A stretch of 10,231 nucleotides of DNA from Butyrivibrio sp. UBA3740. GTDB taxonomy: Bacteria > Bacillota > Clostridia > Lachnospirales > Lachnospiraceae. A model generated the notes under the pieces. It did no database searches, had not been told where the DNA came from, and saw only the letters and a program-made list of their open reading frames with translations. Numbering within the stretch: the stretch's first letter is position 1; each line of letters starts with the position of its first letter. The DNA lies in assembly GCA_002372465.1 (NCBI GenBank), contig DFGW01000154.1:1-10231 (forward strand). Reading direction: 5' to 3'. A program made the translations under genes and the position numbers. Positions 2,011 to 10,231 of this stretch are shown here, piece after piece.

Positions 2011-2913
2011 TTATACGCCAATTCCCATCTTTACGCCACCGGGTATAGAAGGTGTCGGTGAATAGAAGTATTTGTTGTACATGGATTTGAAGTTATCAAT
2101 ATTCTTACCATACTCACTCTGATCATAGAGAACCATGTTGATGGAGACCACAGCTCTGCAGGGCTCACCGTTAACATTAAACATGGTATATTCAGCGTTT
2201 ACGGAGTTTAACAGCCCCTCATATTTCATATCGCCCCAGACAAAGATACACATTCGTTTATTTGGGTCTCTTACAACGGCATTGAGGGCCTCAACTTCCT
2301 TCTGAACTGAAGTTTTCTTATTACCCGTTGCTGCAAGTCCTACATTAACAGCTCCCTTTATAAGGCTTGACTGACCTAAGGTAAACTTATCAGAATAGAA
2401 TGCATCCTGTGGATCAGTTGTGTCGAAGTAAACCTTGAAATTCATATCAATACGGGTATCGGTGGAAGCCATATGTGAACCCGGTATCAGGCTCTTTAGT
2501 CCATCCTCTCCCGGGTTTTTTGAAGCATTCTTGGGGTCCAATGATGGCTGCCTGTGATTCGTATAGTTCTGGACAGGCAATTCCTCACCACCGTAACCGT
2601 TTATAGTGATCTCGTCCGGGTTGAATTGAACTTCAAATCTGTAGGATTTGATCTTACCGGAATAAGTAAAATGCTCATCATCTATGTCGCTGGAAAAACC
2701 AGCAGATCTTGCTGCATAACCCATAACAGACTTGGTATTAAACTCTCCAACGTCGGCTACATTGCCCATTCCGCCGCCCATTCCGGAACTTGGTTTGGGC
2801 GCTTCCTGGTATTCCACCTTATATTCTGATTTATCACCGATGATAAGAACGGCTTTTTTTACTGCTCCAAGATATGAGGCGGCAGTATCTTTTACGACAT
2901 CCATTACTCCCAT
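2011..2913 (-). CDS. CIS tube-adaptor (Afp7/gp53-like), second copy
   Basis: A 300-aa paralogue of the preceding gene with the same core: RFEVQFNPDEITI (92-104), RIDMNFKVYFDTTD (154-167), MCIFVWGDMKYEGLLNSVN (221-239) and YTMFNVNGEPCRAVVSINM (242-260). It differs by a Gly/Met-rich loop (43-50) in the leader and a Pro/Gly-rich C-terminal tail (285-300). It too lacks LysM. The ATG follows CGGAGA at about 9 bases; a second Met at residue 4 is possible. The stop lies 3 bp from the next gene. That tight junction, with only a weak ribosome site for the hub gene, indicates translational coupling. It likely sits between the first adaptor and the hub. Confidence 0.85.
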   Translation of the reverse strand: MGVMDVVKDTAASYLGAVKKAVLIIGDKSEYKVEYQEAPKPSSGMGGGMGNVADVGEFNTKSVMGYAARSAGFSSDIDDEHFTYSGKIKSYRFEVQFNPDEITINGYGGEELPVQNYTNHRQPSLDPKNASKNPGEDGLKSLIPGSHMASTDTRIDMNFKVYFDTTDPQDAFYSDKFTLGQSSLIKGAVNVGLAATGNKKTSVQKEVEALNAVVRDPNKRMCIFVWGDMKYEGLLNSVNAEYTMFNVNGEPCRAVVSINMVLYDQSEYGKNIDNFKSMYNKYFYSPTPSIPGGVKMGIGV

Positions 2914-2930: not shown

Positions 2931-3899
2931 TCAAAAACTGATATTTACCAAACTGTTATTTGTCCATGTGCTGGCAGAACTGTGAACTCCTTCAAAACCT
3001 GGCATATCGCTCTTTGCCTCGAAACAGTCGTTGAAAGCCTTGTCCCAGTAGGAATCGTCATAGCCCTGATCAACCTTCTTCTTATCCTGAGTCAGTTCCA
3101 GGTGCATCTCACCTCTTACGGGATTTCCCTTGCTGTTAAACATTGTAAATCTGTTGCTTACGTCTGTTATGGTGCCTCGAAATACCATCTTCGACCAGAA
3201 GAACACAACTTCCTGTGTAATGTTGGAACAAAGAAGTGATAAAATGGCATCCATCTTGGGCTTTACACTGTAGTCTCCGGTAAGAGATTCTTTTCCCTTT
3301 AATAAAGAGCTGCCGGCCTTGTTGAGTGCCGAAGTAACGTTCATATTTGAAAGCTCGTTAAGTCCGAAAGCATTCATATTGTCAGTGTCATCAAAGATCA
3401 GGTCGAAGGAAAGCTTGCTCTTTCCTGAGAAGTTGTAGACCTTCAGGTTATCAATACCTTCATCAGCTCTTCTGGACTGAATCCTACCATTTACTGAGGA
3501 AAGCCTTATGGTGGCCGGATTGTACTGAACCTTGAACTTGAAGAAGGTGTTCATTCCCTCCTCCAGGTCTCCTGCCAGGCTCTCATCCTCCTGTCCCAGA
3601 TAATTGATAGTCTCCTTGTAGGTGGCGCCAAGCTTATCACCTGCACCCGATCCGATTACGCTCATAAGAGTATCCAGTATTCCGCTCTTGGCACCCTCAG
3701 CAACATCATTGATGCTGAGTTTAGAATTAACCTTTTTCATAAGACCTTTTTCCAGGTTTTTGATGGCAGTAATCTCATCCTTCATAACTCCCATCTTATT
3801 AAAATCTGCAAGGTAGATGTACAGGATTGCCTTTTCACCGGCGCCATCCATAAACATTCCCTTTATGCTGGTAGACAAATTGCTAAGTGCTCCGGCCAT
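2931..3899 (-). CDS. CIS tube-adaptor (Afp7/gp53-like), first copy
   Basis: A 322-aa protein of the contractile-injection-system tube family that caps or initiates the inner tube at the baseplate (Afp7-like). The family core is clear: KVQYNPATIRLSS (123-135), KLSFDLIFDDTD (162-173), EVVFFWSKMVFRGTITDVS (230-248) and RFTMFNSKGNPVRGEMHLEL (250-269). Residues 1-115 are a longer, helix-rich leader than I recall for the family, and the C-terminus (275-322) has no LysM domain, which the common eCIS versions carry. The ATG has AAAGGAGA about 6 bases upstream. A paralogue follows 17 bp later. The two together probably build successive rings between tube and hub. Family assignment is solid; which ring it forms is inferred. 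Confidence 0.85.
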   Translation of the reverse strand: MAGALSNLSTSIKGMFMDGAGEKAILYIYLADFNKMGVMKDEITAIKNLEKGLMKKVNSKLSINDVAEGAKSGILDTLMSVIGSGAGDKLGATYKETINYLGQEDESLAGDLEEGMNTFFKFKVQYNPATIRLSSVNGRIQSRRADEGIDNLKVYNFSGKSKLSFDLIFDDTDNMNAFGLNELSNMNVTSALNKAGSSLLKGKESLTGDYSVKPKMDAILSLLCSNITQEVVFFWSKMVFRGTITDVSNRFTMFNSKGNPVRGEMHLELTQDKKKVDQGYDDSYWDKAFNDCFEAKSDMPGFEGVHSSASTWTNNSLVNISF

Positions 3900-3923: not shown

Positions 3924-5816
3924 TCAGGTATATCCCCGTCTCGCCTTTTCGTTTTTCATTTGGCGCTCGAGCCTTGTCATTACCTGATTGCTTATGGTGT
4001 TCATTTCATGCTTTACGCCGTTTTCGATGAGTTTCTGAATATCGTAGGCGCTGATATTTGATTGGGTGGTCTGATTTGTTACCACCTGCTGTTTGTTTAT
4101 TACCTGGTCCTGAGTAATCGACTCAGATCTGATCTCCTTGTTTATCTGTCTGGAGATATTATTCTGCAGTTCATTTATCTGGTCGTTTAATTCTTCTGTG
4201 GTAAGACTCTCTGTCCTTCTGTGAATGGTCTCCACCGGATGATCAAAGGCTTCTTTTCTCTGTCTAGGCTTTCTTTCTTCCTCTCTGGCTTCCTTAAGGG
4301 ATTTAAGGAATTCCTCAGCCTCCTTTGACCTCTTTACCGTCTGCTGATTCCCGGCTTCACTTGCTACTCTTTCCGCTTCATTGATGTCGTAGATAAGCTC
4401 ACCTACTTCAGCGGGACGAATGTAGTTGTTGGAAACCAGTGTGGTATCTCCCTGATAGTACTCATTTATCATCTGATAGATCTCTGCTGCCTGATCAGGG
4501 AAAAGAGTCTGCATCTCCTTCATAATGAGTTCCTGACGCTTTTGCTTTTTCTCAGATCTTTCAGCAAGAACTGCCTTAAGCTGCTCGGGGTTATTAAGAG
4601 CCAGGGCTCCGTCCTGTATTGTCTTTTCCATTCCACCGCCGGCTTCCCGGTCGATGTGTTTAAGTCTTATCTTCTCGAAGGCTCTCTCGTAATCCAGCCT
4701 TCTCTTTTCATTCTGGACATTGATGGCATTGATGGTCTCCGTGATCCTAAGAACCTCTTCCTCTGACATCTGTCCATCTTCGGGTTTTTGCAAAAGCTCT
4801 ATCTCTGTCTGACTTAAGTTGTTGGTCTCTTCAAGATACTCCTGACTTTCAAAGTAGTTTGCTATGCTCTCCTCGGTATTGTTCATGATGCGAAGGAAGG
4901 TGTGATCCGAAGATTTAAAGAAGGTGTCCTCAAATCTGAAGTAATTTTCGCTCCTTCCGTAGAACCTGTCATAGCCCACATGGTATATGTTCTTTAGCAT
5001 GTCCATGAGAACCGCAGAAGTGATCTCATTTCTTACACTGCTTATCTCACTTTCATTGTTCTCTATATTCTCTTCATATATGTTGCTGTTTAGGAATACC
5101 AGGTTCTCTCCCGGAACTCCCGCCTGCTGCCTTAGCATGGACAAAAGAATATGCTGAGCGGTGTAGGACTGGTCTGAGAGTGAATATTCACTGCTCTCTA
5201 TCTCGTTCTCGGTAACAGATCTGTTGTAGTTTGAAACTATCTGGTAAATAGCTCCTGTCCCAAGCCTGTCCATCACCTTGGTGTAGAGGTAGTTCTCCCT
5301 CTCTCTTTCGGTCCTTTCCATCTCAGAGCTTGTGATCTCTTTTTGCCTTTGCTCAACGGTTTCTATCAGCTCTTTAAGTTCTCCGCCCCTTTGAAGGTAA
5401 AGGCTTATGAGAGTATTGGTGTTTCTGGTCTCCTCAGCCATGCGGTAAAAGGCGTTCATGAACTTCCTATCGTCCTTAACTCCCAACCTGTATAGGGCAT
5501 CTGTAATAAATACCTTATCCTGGTAGGTTAGATTGACTTCTGCGGAAGCAACAATCCTGTTGAGGACATTATTTAATATCTCCACCTTCTGAAGATTGGT
5601 CTCATTCCTCTGACTCTGATTGATGATGCTGGTCATCCCTTCACCTTCGGAAACATATATCTCCGGCGGTGTTGCAGAGATATGGAGCAGATCCTCTTCC
5701 TCGATCCTTGTCTCCATGAGGGAGTAGTTGCCTATGATCCTCTCATAGAAGGCTTCCGGGTCTCTTATGTATGTAGTTTTTGCCTTTATCTCTATAGGAG
5801 CTGTTATGGTAAGCAA
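3924..5816 (-). CDS. Large charged, coiled-coil-like CIS protein of unknown function
   Basis: I do not recognise this 630-aa protein. It is hydrophilic and mostly helical by eye, with very charged segments at 150-176 (RQKEI..ERTERERE), 340-390, 415-435 and 495-525 (KEAEEFLKSLKEAREEERKPRQRKE). A heptad-like region follows at 540-562, then a Gln/Asn/Thr-rich linker (565-588). It appears to lack cysteine and tryptophan, with no signal peptide or membrane span. The C-terminus, YDIQKLIENGVKHEMNTISN then QVMTRLERQMKNEKARRG, resembles the short V-x-x-LE-x-x-x-x-x-E-x-x-RRG tail I recall from other CIS proteins. The chosen start is TTG with AGAGGTGAC just upstream; no in-frame ATG or GTG precedes it. 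Its place between the second tube protein and the adaptors, 24 bp after one and followed 24 bp later by the next, argues for a structural or assembly role. It is smaller than most tape measures and lacks their hydrophobic segments. Confidence 0.6.
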   Translation of the reverse strand: MLTITAPIEIKAKTTYIRDPEAFYERIIGNYSLMETRIEEEDLLHISATPPEIYVSEGEGMTSIINQSQRNETNLQKVEILNNVLNRIVASAEVNLTYQDKVFITDALYRLGVKDDRKFMNAFYRMAEETRNTNTLISLYLQRGGELKELIETVEQRQKEITSSEMERTERERENYLYTKVMDRLGTGAIYQIVSNYNRSVTENEIESSEYSLSDQSYTAQHILLSMLRQQAGVPGENLVFLNSNIYEENIENNESEISSVRNEITSAVLMDMLKNIYHVGYDRFYGRSENYFRFEDTFFKSSDHTFLRIMNNTEESIANYFESQEYLEETNNLSQTEIELLQKPEDGQMSEEEVLRITETINAINVQNEKRRLDYERAFEKIRLKHIDREAGGGMEKTIQDGALALNNPEQLKAVLAERSEKKQKRQELIMKEMQTLFPDQAAEIYQMINEYYQGDTTLVSNNYIRPAEVGELIYDINEAERVASEAGNQQTVKRSKEAEEFLKSLKEAREEERKPRQRKEAFDHPVETIHRRTESLTTEELNDQINELQNNISRQINKEIRSESITQDQVINKQQVVTNQTTQSNISAYDIQKLIENGVKHEMNTISNQVMTRLERQMKNEKARRGYT

Positions 5817-5840: not shown

Positions 5841-7526
5841 TTATTTCTTGAGAGCATCTGCCATGAGAGCTCTTCTTGTGGGCGGATATGTCACAGCCTC
5901 CGGCTTTTCACCGTCCTTAGGGGACTTGGCTGCCCACTTGGGATTTGGGCCGTCCTTAGGGCTGTAGGGCTCATGAGCTTCCGGCTTTTCACTGTCCTTT
6001 GGTGACTTTTTTGCCCATTTTGGATCAGGGCCGTCCTTGGGACTATAGGGCTCATGAGCTTCCGGCTTTTCATCGTCCGTAGGGGACTTAACTGCCCACT
6101 TTGGTGTTGCTCCATCATTGATATCGTATGGATCCTTTGCCTCCGGCTTTTCCTTATCCTTAGGAGAAACCTGGGCGTATTTATTATTTGCCCTGTCTTT
6201 ATTCATTGTGTAAGCTGGCTTATTCACCTCTGATTTATCATTTCTGACTACGGTGTTGCCCTTCTTCTTGTAGATAGGCTGAGCAGCATTCTTATCAACG
6301 TATGCAACCGTGGAGTACTTCTGCTTCTCCTTATCCTTGGCAAGTTCGTACTGAACTCTGTTGAAGTCTCCGGAATCGGTTCTTTCAACTATGCTTGAGC
6401 CGTCCTTGGTAGTAACCTTATAGGTGTTGCCTGACTTATCAGGACCACTTGGCTTAGCCCACTGATTGACGGTTCCGCTCTTTCCATCCCAGGCGGGTTT
6501 ATTGACCTCTGCGTGGTCAATTCTCTTGGTGTGGTTCTTTCCGTCTTCTCCGGCCACCTGATCATAGATCTTTTCTCCGGAGTTCTGATCAAGATAGGCC
6601 TTCTGTGCATATTTCTCTTTGTCCTTATCCACCTTGATCTCGTACTGGGGCTTGTTGTACTGGGAAGTGTCCTTTCTGACCATTGCAGGCTTTCCATCAA
6701 CCTCCCCCATCTCGTAGGTTTCATCTGCAATATCGGGCTTTGCTCTCGAAGCATATTTGCCCTTGACATCCGAGCCGTCCCACATGGGCTTGTTGACATC
6801 GTTCTGGATGGAATCCTTGATCTTCATGGAACCGTTCTGATCCCACTCATACCAATAAGTATCCTGCGCAGTATCATCGTAAGGACTTCTGGCAGCATAC
6901 TTGTATTTGAGTCTGTTCTTTGAATCTTTTTCGGCTTTCCACTCCTCCTGCTCTGAGGATGACTGGAAAGGATTGGTAACTGCGATAAGCTCTCTGTAAG
7001 CTATCGTGGTGGTCTCGGTAAGGAGTCCGCTTCTCTCGGCATTTAATTCTCCGTACTCCTTACTCATTACGGTACAGCCTGTAAAGGTGTAAATTCTGGC
7101 GGGCCATGCCGGTGGTCCGGCGGTAAAGCCCTGAATGGATTTATGTCTGAATACGTAGAGGATAAGGGGAAGAATAAGCTCTGTTCCGTTTGCCAGAGGA
7201 TCCAAAAATCTCTCGGTTCCCACATATCTTTCTATCTGGAAAGTAAAGGGCTTGGAAATGGGCTTACGCTTTAAATGGATATAGTCGTTTACACCGCCCT
7301 CTCTTATGTACTCATACTCGTTTTCCTTGGTGAAGGCCCTTACAGTCTTTATAGGCAGAAAGTATAAGGCTTCAACCTCCAAAACGAAATTGAAGGCGGG
7401 AGTCGGATTATATATGGCGTCAAAGTCGGTATTGCCAAGGAGGGCCGCTTCGGTGCTGCTGTAGGCCTCGTCCTCGTTTACGAACTTGACGGATCCGTCT
7501 TTTTTGGTGATATACTTTCTTGCCAT
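5841..7526 (-). CDS. Second tube-family protein with long repeat extension
   Basis: A 561-aa protein with two parts. Residues about 40-185 form a gp19-like tube domain: NPTPAFNFVLEVEAL (40-54), the block REGGVNDYIHLKRKPISKPF (75-94), DPLANGTELILPL (109-121), RIYTFTGCTVMSKEYGELNAERSGLL (144-169) and ETTTIAYRELIAV (171-183). Such second tube proteins occur in eCIS loci and are thought to form a specialised ring rather than the bulk tube. Residues 209-561 are an added extension of nine degenerate units, each opening K-Y/W-A. The first five are 46-50 residues, the next three exactly 27, and the last is a half unit ending in a basic tail. No signal peptide or membrane segment is seen. The ATG has GTGAGGT about 7 bases upstream. 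Known second tube proteins I recall lack this extension, so roles such as exposed decoration, length gauge or cargo binding are open. The tube-domain call is firm; the extension's role is unknown. Confidence 0.85.
   Translation of the reverse strand: MARKYITKKDGSVKFVNEDEAYSSTEAALLGNTDFDAIYNPTPAFNFVLEVEALYFLPIKTVRAFTKENEYEYIREGGVNDYIHLKRKPISKPFTFQIERYVGTERFLDPLANGTELILPLILYVFRHKSIQGFTAGPPAWPARIYTFTGCTVMSKEYGELNAERSGLLTETTTIAYRELIAVTNPFQSSSEQEEWKAEKDSKNRLKYKYAARSPYDDTAQDTYWYEWDQNGSMKIKDSIQNDVNKPMWDGSDVKGKYASRAKPDIADETYEMGEVDGKPAMVRKDTSQYNKPQYEIKVDKDKEKYAQKAYLDQNSGEKIYDQVAGEDGKNHTKRIDHAEVNKPAWDGKSGTVNQWAKPSGPDKSGNTYKVTTKDGSSIVERTDSGDFNRVQYELAKDKEKQKYSTVAYVDKNAAQPIYKKKGNTVVRNDKSEVNKPAYTMNKDRANNKYAQVSPKDKEKPEAKDPYDINDGATPKWAVKSPTDDEKPEAHEPYSPKDGPDPKWAKKSPKDSEKPEAHEPYSPKDGPNPKWAAKSPKDGEKPEAVTYPPTRRALMADALKK
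5844..6182 (-). repeat. 81-bp in-frame tandem repeat (about 3.5 copies)
   Basis: Successive units at 6182-6102, 6101-6021 and 6020-5940, with a partial unit from 5939, encode exactly 27 residues each in the pattern K-W-A-x-K-S-P-x-D-x-E-K-P-E-A-H-E-P-Y-S-P-K-D-G-P-x-P. The two middle copies are nearly identical at protein level and share long DNA stretches such as ctcatgagcttccggctttt; the outer copies have diverged. The composition (Pro, Lys, Glu, Asp, Ser) suggests an extended hydrophilic stalk. This is a site where copy number may vary between strains. Confidence 0.9.
6183..6902 (-). repeat. Five degenerate ~48-residue coding repeats
   Basis: Within the second tube protein, units begin at residues 209, 257, 305, 355 and 403 (spacing 48, 48, 50, 48, 46). 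Each opens with KYA or a variant (QWA in the fourth, KYS in the fifth), runs through a G-containing turn with an R/K-x-D segment, and reaches an NKPxW/Y signature (N245, N291, N342, N389 as NRVQY, and N435). The 27-residue units that follow keep the KYA/KWA-x-x-SP opening, so both arrays probably derive from one ancestral unit. A repeated beta-hairpin array is my guess for the fold. Confidence 0.75.
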
Positions 7527-7554: not shown

Positions 7555-7803
7555 TTACCTGCTTGGCTTCATATCCAAAATACTTTTTTCTTTCTTCTTG
7601 TCAGAGGGATTAAGACTCTTGTTAATGGAGGATATCTCGCTGCACCACCTGCGCCTTGTGGCGTGGTCCATATTAAGGACTTCTTCCTGGCCCCAGTGGA
7701 AATAGTAGGAAATAAAGCTCATCTCCCTGTAGAGATCCTCCTTGGGATAAAGCCTTAGCCCTCCTGTGTAAAATTTAGCGGCACCTCGAAGGACCTTCCG
7801 CAA
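7555..7803 (-). CDS. DUF6760-like small CIS protein (start uncertain; possibly made by frameshifting)
   Basis: A small protein of a family I recall as DUF6760, found in eCIS loci just after the chaperone-like gene. The conserved part reads YPKEDLYREMSFISYYFHWG, then EEVLNMDHATRRRWCSEIS, then SINKSL, the helical YxxxxLYxExxxIxYxFHW...H..RRRWxxEIxxIN pattern. Its function is unknown to me. Start choice is the problem. The frame opens at TTG 7803 inside the upstream gene with no ribosome site. The only in-frame ATG (7722) would remove the conserved YPKEDLYRE. In-frame codons beside the AGGAGG are not standard starts. Homologues as I remember them begin just before the YP motif, so entry by -1 shift from the 120-aa gene (see 7744-7776) or reinitiation is likely. 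The C-terminal tail (DKKKEKSILDMKPSR) is basic. The next gene starts 28 bp on. Confidence 0.7.
   Translation of the reverse strand: MRKVLRGAAKFYTGGLRLYPKEDLYREMSFISYYFHWGQEEVLNMDHATRRRWCSEISSINKSLNPSDKKKEKSILDMKPSR
7744..7776 (-). other. Candidate programmed -1 ribosomal frameshift site
   Basis: In the reading frame of the 120-aa gene the codons CTA AAT TTT ACA place the heptamer A AAT TTT (7776-7770), an X XXY YYZ slippery sequence, five codons before the TAA at 7757-7755. The following frame is exactly -1. After an 8-base spacer comes a modest stem-loop at 7761-7744: three G-C pairs, one mismatch, three A-T pairs and a 4-base loop. An AGGAGG (7765-7760) overlaps its 5' side. A shift here would give about 116 residues of the chaperone-like protein joined to 71 residues of the DUF6760-like protein (about 187 aa), mirroring phage gpG/gpGT. 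The AGGAGG could instead serve reinitiation, but no normal start codon lies at a suitable distance. The site is visible; its use is inferred. Confidence 0.5.
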
Positions 7804-8117
7804 TCAGGGCAGATGCACTGCATTACCGGTGCTTCCACATCGTTGATCCTCTGATACATATCCTGAAGGAAGGCCAGATCAGCGGTAAAGAGCTGCTCAA
7901 TGGTTGTAGCTGTAACAGACTCCATTCCCTCAAGCTCAGTAACCACCTTGCTTAAGATAACGATTGTCAGATAGGAAGGATTGGCTAACACTCTGGGGTC
8001 TCTTGTAGCTGAGATCTCATCTCCGGCTGTAGCAAGTCTCATTCTTCCCCTTCTGTGTAATTCCCCCCGGGAATCCATATACCCCTTTGGCAGTGTGAAT
8101 TCATAAATTGTTTCCAT
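7755..8117 (-). CDS. Tail-assembly-chaperone-like protein with C-terminal Cys motif
   Basis: A 120-aa soluble protein in the slot that eCIS loci give to a small tail/baseplate assembly protein, between tube and the later structural genes. The N-terminal part (1-30: YEFTLPKGYMDSRGELHRRGRMRLAT) resembles the start of phage tail assembly chaperones and T4-like hub-assembly chaperones as I recall them. The middle (40-95) is predicted helical. The C-terminus has C101, C103 and C106 in CICPDCG, half of a zinc-ribbon-like site; a fourth Cys is absent from this product. The ATG has a strong AGGAGG five bases upstream (tctgt spacer). The gene ends in TAA, but a slippery A AAT TTT lies five codons before it and the DUF6760-like frame continues in -1. 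It is probably not part of the finished particle, acting in folding or assembly; that function is inferred from family and position. Confidence 0.7.
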   Translation of the reverse strand: METIYEFTLPKGYMDSRGELHRRGRMRLATAGDEISATRDPRVLANPSYLTIVILSKVVTELEGMESVTATTIEQLFTADLAFLQDMYQRINDVEAPVMQCICPDCGRSFEVPLNFTQEG

Positions 8118-8217: not shown

Positions 8218-8255
8218 AATTTGCACCTGCTGCAAATTAAGCGCAAGCTTAATTT
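8218..8255 (-). promoter_or_regulatory. Two overlapping, mutually exclusive hairpins at the tube-gene stop codon
   Basis: Two perfect inverted repeats share bases. The first spans 8234-8255, with 9-bp arms aaattaagc and gcttaattt around a 4-base loop, and contains the tube stop codon. The second spans 8218-8238, with 8-bp arms aatttgca and tgcaaatt around a 5-base loop. They overlap at 8234-8238, so an RNA can form only one at a time. Neither is followed on the minus strand by a T-run, so this is not a classical intrinsic terminator. Plausible roles are protection of the sheath/tube mRNA 3' end, processing, or reduction of read-through into lower-copy genes. The pairing is seen; the roles are inferred. 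Confidence 0.5.
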
Positions 8256-8749
8256 GGAATTACAAGTTCCTCGTATGCAATTTCTACTGACTCAATTGCG
8301 ATATCACTGTTCTTGGCATCCAGATCAGGTGCTGAGTACTTGGTTACCCATGCATTTGTAAGTGTCCACTGTCTTGCTCCGACAGAAGATGTAACTGCTG
8401 CAGTAGGTGCACCGGAATTGATATCAATGAGTTCGATAGTAACGTTCTGACGTGGGATCTGACCACGCATCTCGCTGACACACTCCATTACCCATGTCTT
8501 AAACGGACTTGATACGATATAGCCCATCTTAAGAGTAACGTTTCCGTGTTTAACGAGTCCAGGTACCTTTACAGGTGCAAGGGAACCGGAATTTCCCTGG
8601 CGGAACTCTATTACATCAACTGTAGCCTCGATGCCTGTAACCTCTGAAAATGCTGCTGTTCCTGCGATAGAATCAACTGTCACCAGGAAGTTCATTTTGG
8701 TTAAGGGATAAGCTGACCCTTTACCGTTATCATATGCTCCAGTAGCCAT
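8249..8749 (-). CDS. Inner tube protein, T4 gp19-like
   Basis: This is the major inner tube subunit, whose hexameric rings stack inside the sheath. Its 166 residues match the usual length. The fold signature is complete: MNFLVTVDSI (19-28), AAFSEVTGIEATVDVIEFRQG (32-52), KVPGLVKHGNVTLKMG (61-76), W86 in the helix, the V-T-I-E-L-I-D strand (103-109), WTLTNAWVTKYSAPDL (128-143) and the closing IAIESVEIAYEELVI (150-164). This is the conserved phage-tail region I know as TIGR02241, typical of eCIS and related tailocins. The ATG is preceded by AAAGGAGT about 7 bases upstream. It directly follows the sheath gene, the standard order for two proteins needed in hundreds of copies. The stop codon and the last Asn codon lie inside a perfect inverted repeat (described separately), which is unusual and may bear on expression of the downstream genes. 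Confidence 0.95.
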   Translation of the reverse strand: MATGAYDNGKGSAYPLTKMNFLVTVDSIAGTAAFSEVTGIEATVDVIEFRQGNSGSLAPVKVPGLVKHGNVTLKMGYIVSSPFKTWVMECVSEMRGQIPRQNVTIELIDINSGAPTAAVTSSVGARQWTLTNAWVTKYSAPDLDAKNSDIAIESVEIAYEELVIPN

Positions 8750-8784: not shown

Positions 8785-10231
8785 TTATTCTTCTCCGCCG
8801 CCGGCTTCAGAAGTGTGCTGAGTTACTCTGAAGATTACGAATTCAGCAGGACGGGATGGTGCTATACCGATATTACAGATAAGTCTGCCGTTCATGATGT
8901 CATCTCTTGTCATTGTTGAAGGTCCAATCTCTACGAAGTAGCTGTCAGCAGCTGATTCGCCGGCGAGCATTCCGTTTCTCCAAAGTCCGTCAAGGAAGTT
9001 GGAAATTGTGAGATTAACTCTCTGCCACAATGTAGGATCGTTAGGCTCAAATACAACCCAGTTGGTATTTGCCTTGATACTCTCCTCAACGAAGATGAAG
9101 AGTCTTCTAACGTTGACATACTTGAATGCGGAGTTGCTGGAAGCGGTTCTTGCGCCCCAGATCCTGATACCCTGTCCGGGAAGCATCCTGATAAGGTTGA
9201 TTCCTTCAGGATTGAGGATATCCTGCTCATCCTTGGTATAGTTAACCGAAAGACCTGTACAGAATACAACTTCGTTAGCAGGTGCCTTATGAACACCTCT
9301 GTCGATATCTGTTCTGGAATATACGCCCATTACAGCGCCTGAAGGCGGGATGTAATCTGACTTGTTGGAAGATCTGTCAAATACCTGGATCCATGGATGA
9401 TACATAGCGCAGTATGTAGAATCAACCATCTGTCTGTATCCGATAAGATCTGCTGTCTTGTACATGTCTTTTGGCATATCCAGTACTGCAAAGCGGCTTC
9501 TGAGTCTCTCGCAGTGACCAACCAGGGCAACTACTACTTCCGGCATTGTGATTCCGGGGATTGCCAGCATGCTGACAATGTTGTTCTCAACGAATGCCTC
9601 AAGTCCTGTACGCTTGCCGGGGCCGTTGTCCTCACCGATAAAGGTTGAAGGATCAACCTTTGAAACTGATCCGTCTGAACCGCCTTCAAGGAAGAATACG
9701 CCGTCTGTTACGTCCTCACCCAGGATATCTGCAACAGGGTTAGCCGGTGTCTTCTGAGGATTAACCTCTACCTTGATGATGTCGCTGCCGGCAAGTCTTG
9801 ATCCGATGAATCTTGGAGACTGTGTATTAACAGAAAGCTCTCCGTAATTCTCAACATCGTCGCCGTAGCGAACTGACATGTCCATGGTTACAAGATAAAC
9901 AACTGACTTTGGAATGATATCTGTATCAACAGCTGTATCAGGAAGTTCATCCACAAATGTGATCTCTCTGTCGAAGATGGTCTTGATCGTTGTGTAGGTT
10001 CCCTCGAACTCTACCAGATCACCTTCTCTGAAGCCTTCTGTGCTCTTTGCAATAAATCCGGCATCTGTCTTCTCAATAAGTTGAAGTTTTCTCTTCTTAT
10101 TGGTTGAAAGCATAACCTGAATCTTGTTGCCCCAAGCACCCGGGCTTGTTGCGGTTACGTTAATGAGACCCTTCTTTGCTGATGCAGGCTTTGCATCTCT
10201 GGGAGCAACACGCATTACATAGCATCTTGTT
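8785..10231 (-). CDS. Contractile injection system sheath protein (5' end cut by window edge)
   Basis: This is the contractile outer sheath, which forms the sleeve around the inner tube and shortens to drive it into a target. The frame is open to the right edge: five codons (TRCYV) precede the first visible ATG without a stop, and they continue a typical sheath stretch (RCYV-MRVAP, compare RxYVVRVAP as I recall from the family). That Met is therefore probably internal, and the true start lies outside. In total 481 residues are visible. Counting from that Met, diagnostic family segments are GVYSRTDIDRGVHKAPAN (297-314), LNPEGINLIRMLPGQGIRIWGART (334-357), the FVEESIKANTNWVVFEPND block (375-393), LWQRVNLTISNFLDGLWRNG (396-415) and a C-terminal ICNIGIAPSRPAEFVIFRVTQ strand (446-466) that would dock with neighbouring subunits. 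The tail ends GGGEE. It is the first visible gene of the operon and is followed after 35 bp by the tube gene. Assignment is secure; whether phage, tailocin or eCIS is set by the neighbours. Confidence 0.95.
   Translation of the reverse strand, partial: TRCYVMRVAPRDAKPASAKKGLINVTATSPGAWGNKIQVMLSTNKKRKLQLIEKTDAGFIAKSTEGFREGDLVEFEGTYTTIKTIFDREITFVDELPDTAVDTDIIPKSVVYLVTMDMSVRYGDDVENYGELSVNTQSPRFIGSRLAGSDIIKVEVNPQKTPANPVADILGEDVTDGVFFLEGGSDGSVSKVDPSTFIGEDNGPGKRTGLEAFVENNIVSMLAIPGITMPEVVVALVGHCERLRSRFAVLDMPKDMYKTADLIGYRQMVDSTYCAMYHPWIQVFDRSSNKSDYIPPSGAVMGVYSRTDIDRGVHKAPANEVVFCTGLSVNYTKDEQDILNPEGINLIRMLPGQGIRIWGARTASSNSAFKYVNVRRLFIFVEESIKANTNWVVFEPNDPTLWQRVNLTISNFLDGLWRNGMLAGESAADSYFVEIGPSTMTRDDIMNGRLICNIGIAPSRPAEFVIFRVTQHTSEAGGGEE

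Follow-up and report, generated by a model that had tools for sequence, protein, structure and literature searches.

One gene of the window, i.e., the whole 10,231-nucleotide stretch analyzed here, encodes a 561-residue protein of a contractile injection system in which a gp19/Hcp-like tube domain is followed by a long repeat-built tail and a C-terminal peptide that is mostly conserved among relatives. We judge it about an even call that the protein forms a tube-initiator ring with flexible repeat tethers, each presenting a docking peptide to a partner. The tube initiator is a known kind of protein, of which this would be a variant with a repeat-built tether and a mostly conserved tip.

The window is the entire contig of an incomplete Butyrivibrio genome (3.19 Mb, 263 contigs, 77% complete) with close named relatives in Butyrivibrio, and is the middle part of an eCIS-type contractile injection system locus. 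Its main genes, all on the minus strand, run in the order sheath, tube, chaperone-like, DUF6760, repeat-tail protein, coiled-coil-like protein, two CIS_tube proteins, a gpD-like protein and a gpV-like spike protein, among them:

8785..10215, minus strand: sheath, 5' part cut by the contig end (565-573 residues in 16 long relatives)
8249..8749, minus strand: first (main) tube protein, 166 residues (Pfam gp19, 108 bits; Pvc1/Afp1 matches)
7755..8117, minus strand: tail-assembly-chaperone-like protein, 120 residues (phrog_508, E 6e-8)
7555..7803, minus strand: DUF6760 small protein, overlapping the chaperone-like gene (present in 78 of 80 loci)
5841..7526, minus strand: whole gene of the tube-initiator-like protein with repeat tail, 561 residues (ORF)
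3924..5816, minus strand: coiled-coil-like protein, 630 residues, adjoining the repeat-tail gene (position, variable middle)
2931..3899, minus strand: CIS_tube (PF19266) protein, first copy
2011..2913, minus strand: CIS_tube (PF19266) protein, second copy

The chaperone-like and DUF6760 reading frames share a 49-base overlap (7755-7803), an arrangement resembling phage tail-chaperone frameshift pairs. This gene order continues in most of the 21 relatives mapped; truncated contigs occur among them, as do genes that are broken or escaped ORF calling (e.g., the one for the coiled coil in G014). In the long locus of relative G006, the upstream part encodes a CIS13 match below cut-off, membrane proteins, a TolC/OEP-like protein, a 905-residue exported protein, Pvc16_N and DUF4280/PAAR, and the downstream part encodes gp25, two Baseplate_J, Tail_P2_I, STAS, ABC, HATPase, SH3 and AAA proteins. 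The eCIS gene set (sheath, tube, gp25, Baseplate_J, PAAR-type protein, Pvc16-type cap and AAA ATPase) thus occurs together in G006, and the window holds only part of it because its contig ends. The Pfam matches for the window and G006 include no capsid or other head gene, and we read the locus as an injection system rather than a prophage tail. The upstream membrane and CIS13-like genes would be compatible with a membrane-anchored mode. In most long relatives the locus comes with an upstream set of CIS13-like, multi-spanning, TolC/OEP-like and exported proteins (L033:524-11729), a hint that in this Gram-positive lineage the machine may be associated with a membrane. The 3' end carries STAS, ABC ATPase and HATPase genes (L034:14508-16383) that look like a signalling or partner-switch module. 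The coiled-coil protein has nothing above cut-off in Pfam or NCBIfam, no PDB match and, in PHROGs, only weak matches to families of unknown function; purely by position and elimination, it is a tape-measure candidate.

Homology searches with the 561-residue protein retrieved 404 proteins at E <= 0.001 (7994 candidates scored). By sequence, its tube domain falls short of the usual thresholds, with a Pfam gp19 score of 17.7 bits, below the cut-off of 28.2, and PDB profile searches gave a best E of 0.78 in one and no match in the other. Foldseek with the domain model, in turn, returned 6rao_F (Afp5, E 6.5e-6) as the top match, 6j0b_a (Pvc1, 7.7e-6) second and Pvc5 eleventh. These fold matches support the sequence-only reading of a second tube-type protein. 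The protein has the gp19/Hcp-like tube fold of the Afp5/Pvc5 initiators (literature on these includes PMC13277306, available in part), and its gene is a second tube-type gene, distinct from the main tube gene and near the CIS_tube genes in a CIS locus. We infer that it is a tube initiator of the Afp5/Pvc5 type rather than another tube ring. In one relative (L011/L081, genome G031), the tube-initiator gene carries an in-frame TAG just ahead of the tube domain. The parts of the window gene, from N to C terminus, are:

6969..7424, minus strand: gp19/Hcp-like tube domain, residues 35-186, model positions 1-152 (alignment; model pLDDT 72; Foldseek)
6903..6968, minus strand: linker from tube domain to first repeat, residues 187-208 (domain end from profile)
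6183..6902, minus strand: five long units (48, 48, 50, 48 and 46 residues), A and B types alternating
5940..6182, minus strand: three short Pro/Lys/Glu units, 27 residues each
5889..5939, minus strand: partial fourth short unit, residues 530-546
5844..5888, minus strand: conserved C-terminal peptide YPPTRRALMADALKK, residues 547-561 (leave-clade-out profile)

The repeat map first drawn from the sequence alone proved exact, with units of 48, 48, 50, 48, 46, 27, 27 and 27 residues and then a part unit. The units start at residues 209, 257, 305, 355, 403, 449, 476, 503 and 530, the final piece being 32 residues; the range first read holds as well, with base 6902 opening residue 209 and base 5844 closing the last sense codon. 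Self-alignment of the tail reaches a best score of 172 against a maximum of 92 across 200 shuffles, and the five long units alone also give 172 against 86 in shuffles. At the DNA level, a tandem array is seen for the short units only (period 81 bp, 5895-6104). Among the long units, unit 2 matches unit 4 (z 10.4) and unit 3 matches unit 5 (z 8.7), which argues that duplication acted on an A+B pair of about 96-98 residues; the tail autocorrelation peaks at 27 and 98. The short units, including the part unit, are 48-85% identical to one another. An origin of the short unit from the long one by internal deletion, as had been proposed, is plausible, with weak statistical support (z 0.1-4.2 for long-short pairs, median 2.5); in L075 and L074, where both kinds are present, such pairs give median z of 3.1 and 3.7. 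In a low-confidence AlphaFold2 model of the full-length protein (pLDDT 56), each long unit is predicted to form a β-hairpin and the short units none, as expected if the roughly 21 residues absent from the short units were the hairpin. Roughly 27-residue Pro/Glu/Lys units also make up the titin PEVK region, where they serve as an entropic spring, an analogy with no homology claimed. A search with residues 205-561, by a method that detects shared exact words only, found no such tail as a general repeat domain on other proteins, and this candidate was rejected, as all 45 tail matches are also among the 120 listed homologues of the whole protein.

To see how widespread the tail is, we measured 80 genes, 77 of them from named loci that had been fetched and the rest from the window, G054 and G033. 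Fetching took the best 80 of 231 matches, which biases the sample toward near relatives; in three fetched loci (L129, L130 and L144) no tube2 ORF was called, and G000, G054 and G033 were added. Leaving out six of the 80 genes that run off contig ends, a tail of 85-1054 residues is present in 70 of 74 complete genes, and the other four (G054, L103, G033 and L122) have 0-11 residues after the domain. The extension is therefore common but not universal in the family, and no known role for it was found in the open-licence literature. The tail-less loci keep nearly the same gene order, with L122 showing one CIS_tube gene only. Parsimony on a 63-locus tree gives four tail/no-tail changes with the root undecided; L122 and G054 are nested within tailed clades (support 0.99 and 0.94-0.98, respectively), and at least these two look like tail losses. 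Counting the window's own genome, matches at E 0.001, the weakest of which may be other tube proteins, occur in 22 of 99 near genomes, 24 of 397 of the family, 12 of 392 of the order and 5 of 391 of the class. Across the family, hits at E 1e-30 or better occur in 19 other genomes; in 7 of these the frame stays open for no more than 180 residues, and some of these frames are perhaps cut by contig ends. The tail belongs to the Lachnospiraceae form of this protein. The longest complete one (L083:5805-9464; 1054 residues) alternates 72- and 28-residue units and then continues as a run of 28-residue units, and its coiled-coil neighbor is 1210 residues long.

Comparisons of close pairs show how the tail changes. 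Relative to L071, the nearest relative compared locus-wide, the window tail has an additional 81-residue block, i.e., three 27-residue units, plus one end residue, so that the suggested copy-number change of short units is seen directly. L091 and L092 differ by one 60-residue block and gaps of 1-4 residues, their tube2 proteins being 85% identical where aligned, whereas ten other proteins are 98-100% identical. The tails of L074 and L075 (441 and 699 residues) are 258 residues apart in blocks of 75, 102 and 81, whereas nine other compared proteins are 96-100% identical and of equal length, including a coiled coil of 822 residues in both. Between L124 and L134, the tail (75+10 residues), the coiled coil (90) and the exported protein (58) all differ together. 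In 60 of 64 tails the periodicity exceeds that of each of 20 shuffles, and the top periods range from 20 to 118; L140, L115, L093 and L095 do not exceed their shuffles, and six of the 70 tails were left out of this test (five under 120 residues, plus L150). The tails are rebuilt from lineage-specific repeats, with periods that differ by lineage. Tail dN/dS is 0.05-0.42 in 14 of 15 close pairs, one pair being saturated, and domain dN/dS is 0.00-0.30 over the 15; the tail is under purifying selection.

Such values bear on a mostly neutral expansion, in which the domain and perhaps the tip matter and the tail simply drifts. The very fast turnover of length and period, the scatter of the four tail-less genes on the tree and a tail dN/dS above that of the domain in most close pairs all fit drift, but tail dN/dS is well below 1, and the open frame and mostly the tip are retained over 85-1054 residues, making this reading exceedingly improbable.

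The final 15 or so residues, which had gone unremarked in the sequence-only reading, are the best conserved part of the tail. Most tails end with the consensus WPPTRRALMAxxLxKK or a variant, and in the window a helix is predicted at residues 551-560 (low-confidence model). A profile of the last 30 residues was applied to each tail with its own clade (N-domain identity 72% or more) left out, covering 69 of the 70 tails (L150, with a masked run, was dropped). Its best match is the C-terminal end in 62 of 69 tails and also exceeds all 50 shuffles in 59, narrowly for L098, L114, L146 and L148. Among the remainder, the best match lies elsewhere in L101, L106, L112 and L115, lies 16-18 residues before the end in L124, L135 and L149, and is not above shuffles in L108, L109 and L137; some of the ten tails failing this strict test show tip variants by eye. 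In the tip alignment, one Ala is present in 69 of 69 and a Trp, Tyr or Phe in 67 of 69, and in 61 of 70 tails a tip regular expression finds a match no more than 45 residues from the end. Across 14 genomes (11 tailed, 3 tail-less), a tip profile matched strongly (E <= 1.1e-7) ten times, always at the end of this gene, once in each of ten tailed genomes and missing only tailed G048. Tail-less G054 and G025 have no match up to E 1, tail-less G033 has weak matches only (best 0.014), and the best match away from this gene is at E 0.003 (G002). The tip was also considered as a membrane helix, a weak candidate given the very low hydrophobic moment of 0.04 in the window; two other tips have 0.55 and 0.35.

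Where the tail goes can be approached from published structures. In the tube fold, the last strand lies in the outer sheet and C-terminal domains or arms lie outside the tube (available parts of PMC8718954), and in AlgoCIS the initiator Alg7 has a C-terminal LysM domain that extends to the wedges, with a cleaved linker (available parts of PMC8894135). Because of these structures, we favor an exit of the tail from the tube-initiator ring on its outer face, inside the baseplate, as would be expected by analogy. A lumenal position and a cargo tether had been among the earlier suggestions. As a cargo tether or lumen plug, the tails would sit in the tube lumen and hold effectors or fill the base. 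This reading draws on the lumenal position of eCIS cargo (accessible text of PMC8894135) and on the Alg6/Cis6 plug, which is partly lumen-exposed, and repeat number could set capacity. The outer-sheet position of the last strand disfavors it by analogy, and no widespread family tracks the tail among 16 long loci, where cargo genes were not identified, leaving the lumenal reading an unlikely one. If the tails instead emerged at the baseplate and touched the cell wall, a membrane or the target, the outer-face exit would fit by analogy; yet a conserved tip suits a specific partner more than a variable target, and the window tip helix is no obvious membrane helix, so that such exterior contact is rather unlikely.

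The same 16 loci (13 tailed, 3 tail-less; plus-strand ORFs of at least 60 residues, some contigs cut) contain no widespread gene family linked to the tail. One family of 286-291 residues occurs in 3 of the 13 tailed and none of the 3 tail-less loci. A gene gained or lost with the tail was therefore rejected, and since no family common to most tailed loci is missing from all tail-less ones, the partner, if encoded in the locus, would be a core protein. DUF6760 was rejected as an obligate partner, as it is present in all four tail-less loci.

Tail length was compared with that of other locus proteins. In independent contrasts over 59 tailed loci, tail and coiled-coil lengths covary (r 0.34, one-sided p 0.007; rank 0.36, p 0.003), although the tail was tested against 13 proteins and the p value is modest after correction; over all 63 loci, tail-less included, r is 0.28 (p 0.014), and the raw correlation is weak (rho 0.15). 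Against the exported protein, the contrasts give r 0.21 (p 0.066; rank 0.32, p 0.016; n 44). Eleven other locus proteins show no length covariation with the tail in contrasts, but these controls are less length-variable (sd/mean 0.03-0.11, compared with 0.21 for the coiled coil) and thus have less power to detect it; the tail, the coiled coil and the exported protein are the most length-variable, and shared repeat instability is possibly behind the covariation. As separate observations, the coiled coil covaries in length with the roughly 905-residue exported protein (contrasts r 0.43, one-sided p 0.002, n 44; raw rho 0.66, n 45) and negatively with both CIS_tube lengths (contrasts r -0.49 and -0.38). 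By hydropathy, a signal-like segment is present at the N terminus of the exported protein, whose gene lies ahead of the sheath gene (e.g., L033:9012-11729), and absent from that of the coiled coil.

These data weigh on a length gauge, i.e., a tail that, alone or with the coiled coil, measures the tube. Besides the covariation after descent correction, 15 of the 20 disjoint sister pairs that changed in both tail and coiled coil did so with the same sign, and L124 and L134 differ jointly in three proteins. However, the coiled coils of L074 and L075 are equal beside tails 258 residues apart, in 6 of the 25 pairs whose tails changed by at least 20 the coiled coil changed by less than 5, tails of 85-144 residues stand beside coiled coils of 686-768 residues (those of 101-144 beside 747-768), and loci without a tail exist. 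Moreover, the covariation could stem from lineage-wide repeat instability, and the tape-measure role of the coiled coil is itself presumptive. Taking the contrasts and the L074/L075 case together, coupling of the tail to the coiled coil is at most loose, and a ruler or gauge is very unlikely. Overall, of what had been proposed, the second tube protein and the copy-number change hold up, and the gauge and the lumen placement are disfavored.

In the preferred reading, that of a tethered tube-initiator ring, the gene would encode an Afp5/Pvc5-type initiator of a Lachnospiraceae contractile injection system, presumably with six subunits, each bearing a flexible repeat tail and the conserved end peptide. 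The tail would act as a tether or spacer between the ring and the C-terminal docking peptide, setting a distance that is loose and can evolve. The peptide would bind a partner, for which core proteins encoded in the same locus (baseplate, membrane module or coiled coil) are the most likely candidates. Six copies, flexibility and tip binding to a protein are all presumed, flexibility in particular because the full-length model is of low confidence. Against this reading, the four tail-less genes show that some lineages manage without a tail. A more specific version, in which six elastic tethers would link the initiator ring to a fixed partner, e.g., the upstream-encoded membrane module, with a reach evolving with particle size, as a positioning or recoil device of which we met no description for contractile injection systems, is distinctly unlikely.

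Several known systems resemble parts of this arrangement. With the initiators Afp5, Pvc5 and Alg5 the protein shares the gp19-like fold (Afp5 being the best structural match by a small margin) and the presence of a further tube-type gene next to those for sheath, tube and CIS_tube; however, the solved Afp5 and Pvc5 initiators are plain rings with chains of 149 and 152 residues, respectively, with no room for a tail, whereas the Butyrivibrio protein has 561 residues with repeats and a tip. Alg7 likewise joins a tube fold to a C-terminal extension reaching the wedges, but in the portion of PMC8894135 at hand this is one folded domain with a cleaved linker, whereas that of Butyrivibrio is a variable repeat tail on another ring. 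Phage tube proteins also carry C-terminal additions on the outside (Ig-like domains in T5, YSD1 and lambda; the C-arm in SPP1 and 80alpha), yet these, as far as PMC8718954 is available, consist of one domain or a short arm attached to the main tube protein and are not long repeat tethers on a second one. In thylakoid-anchored CIS, extensions of the base components Cis12 and Cis13 tie the CIS to another structure; these are different proteins, and the accessible sections of PMC8894136 mention no repeat tether or conserved C-terminal peptide. In the open-licence literature we found no published description of a repeat-tailed tube initiator, no contractile-injection papers on Butyrivibrio or Lachnospiraceae eCIS and no papers on DUF6760 or a disordered repeat tube protein.

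Tails of 0-1054 residues, including pairs of otherwise near-identical loci, form a natural length series that allows direct tests of particle length, cargo loading and anchoring, and the tip peptide is a handle for finding the partner. These systems occur in commensal gut and rumen bacteria.
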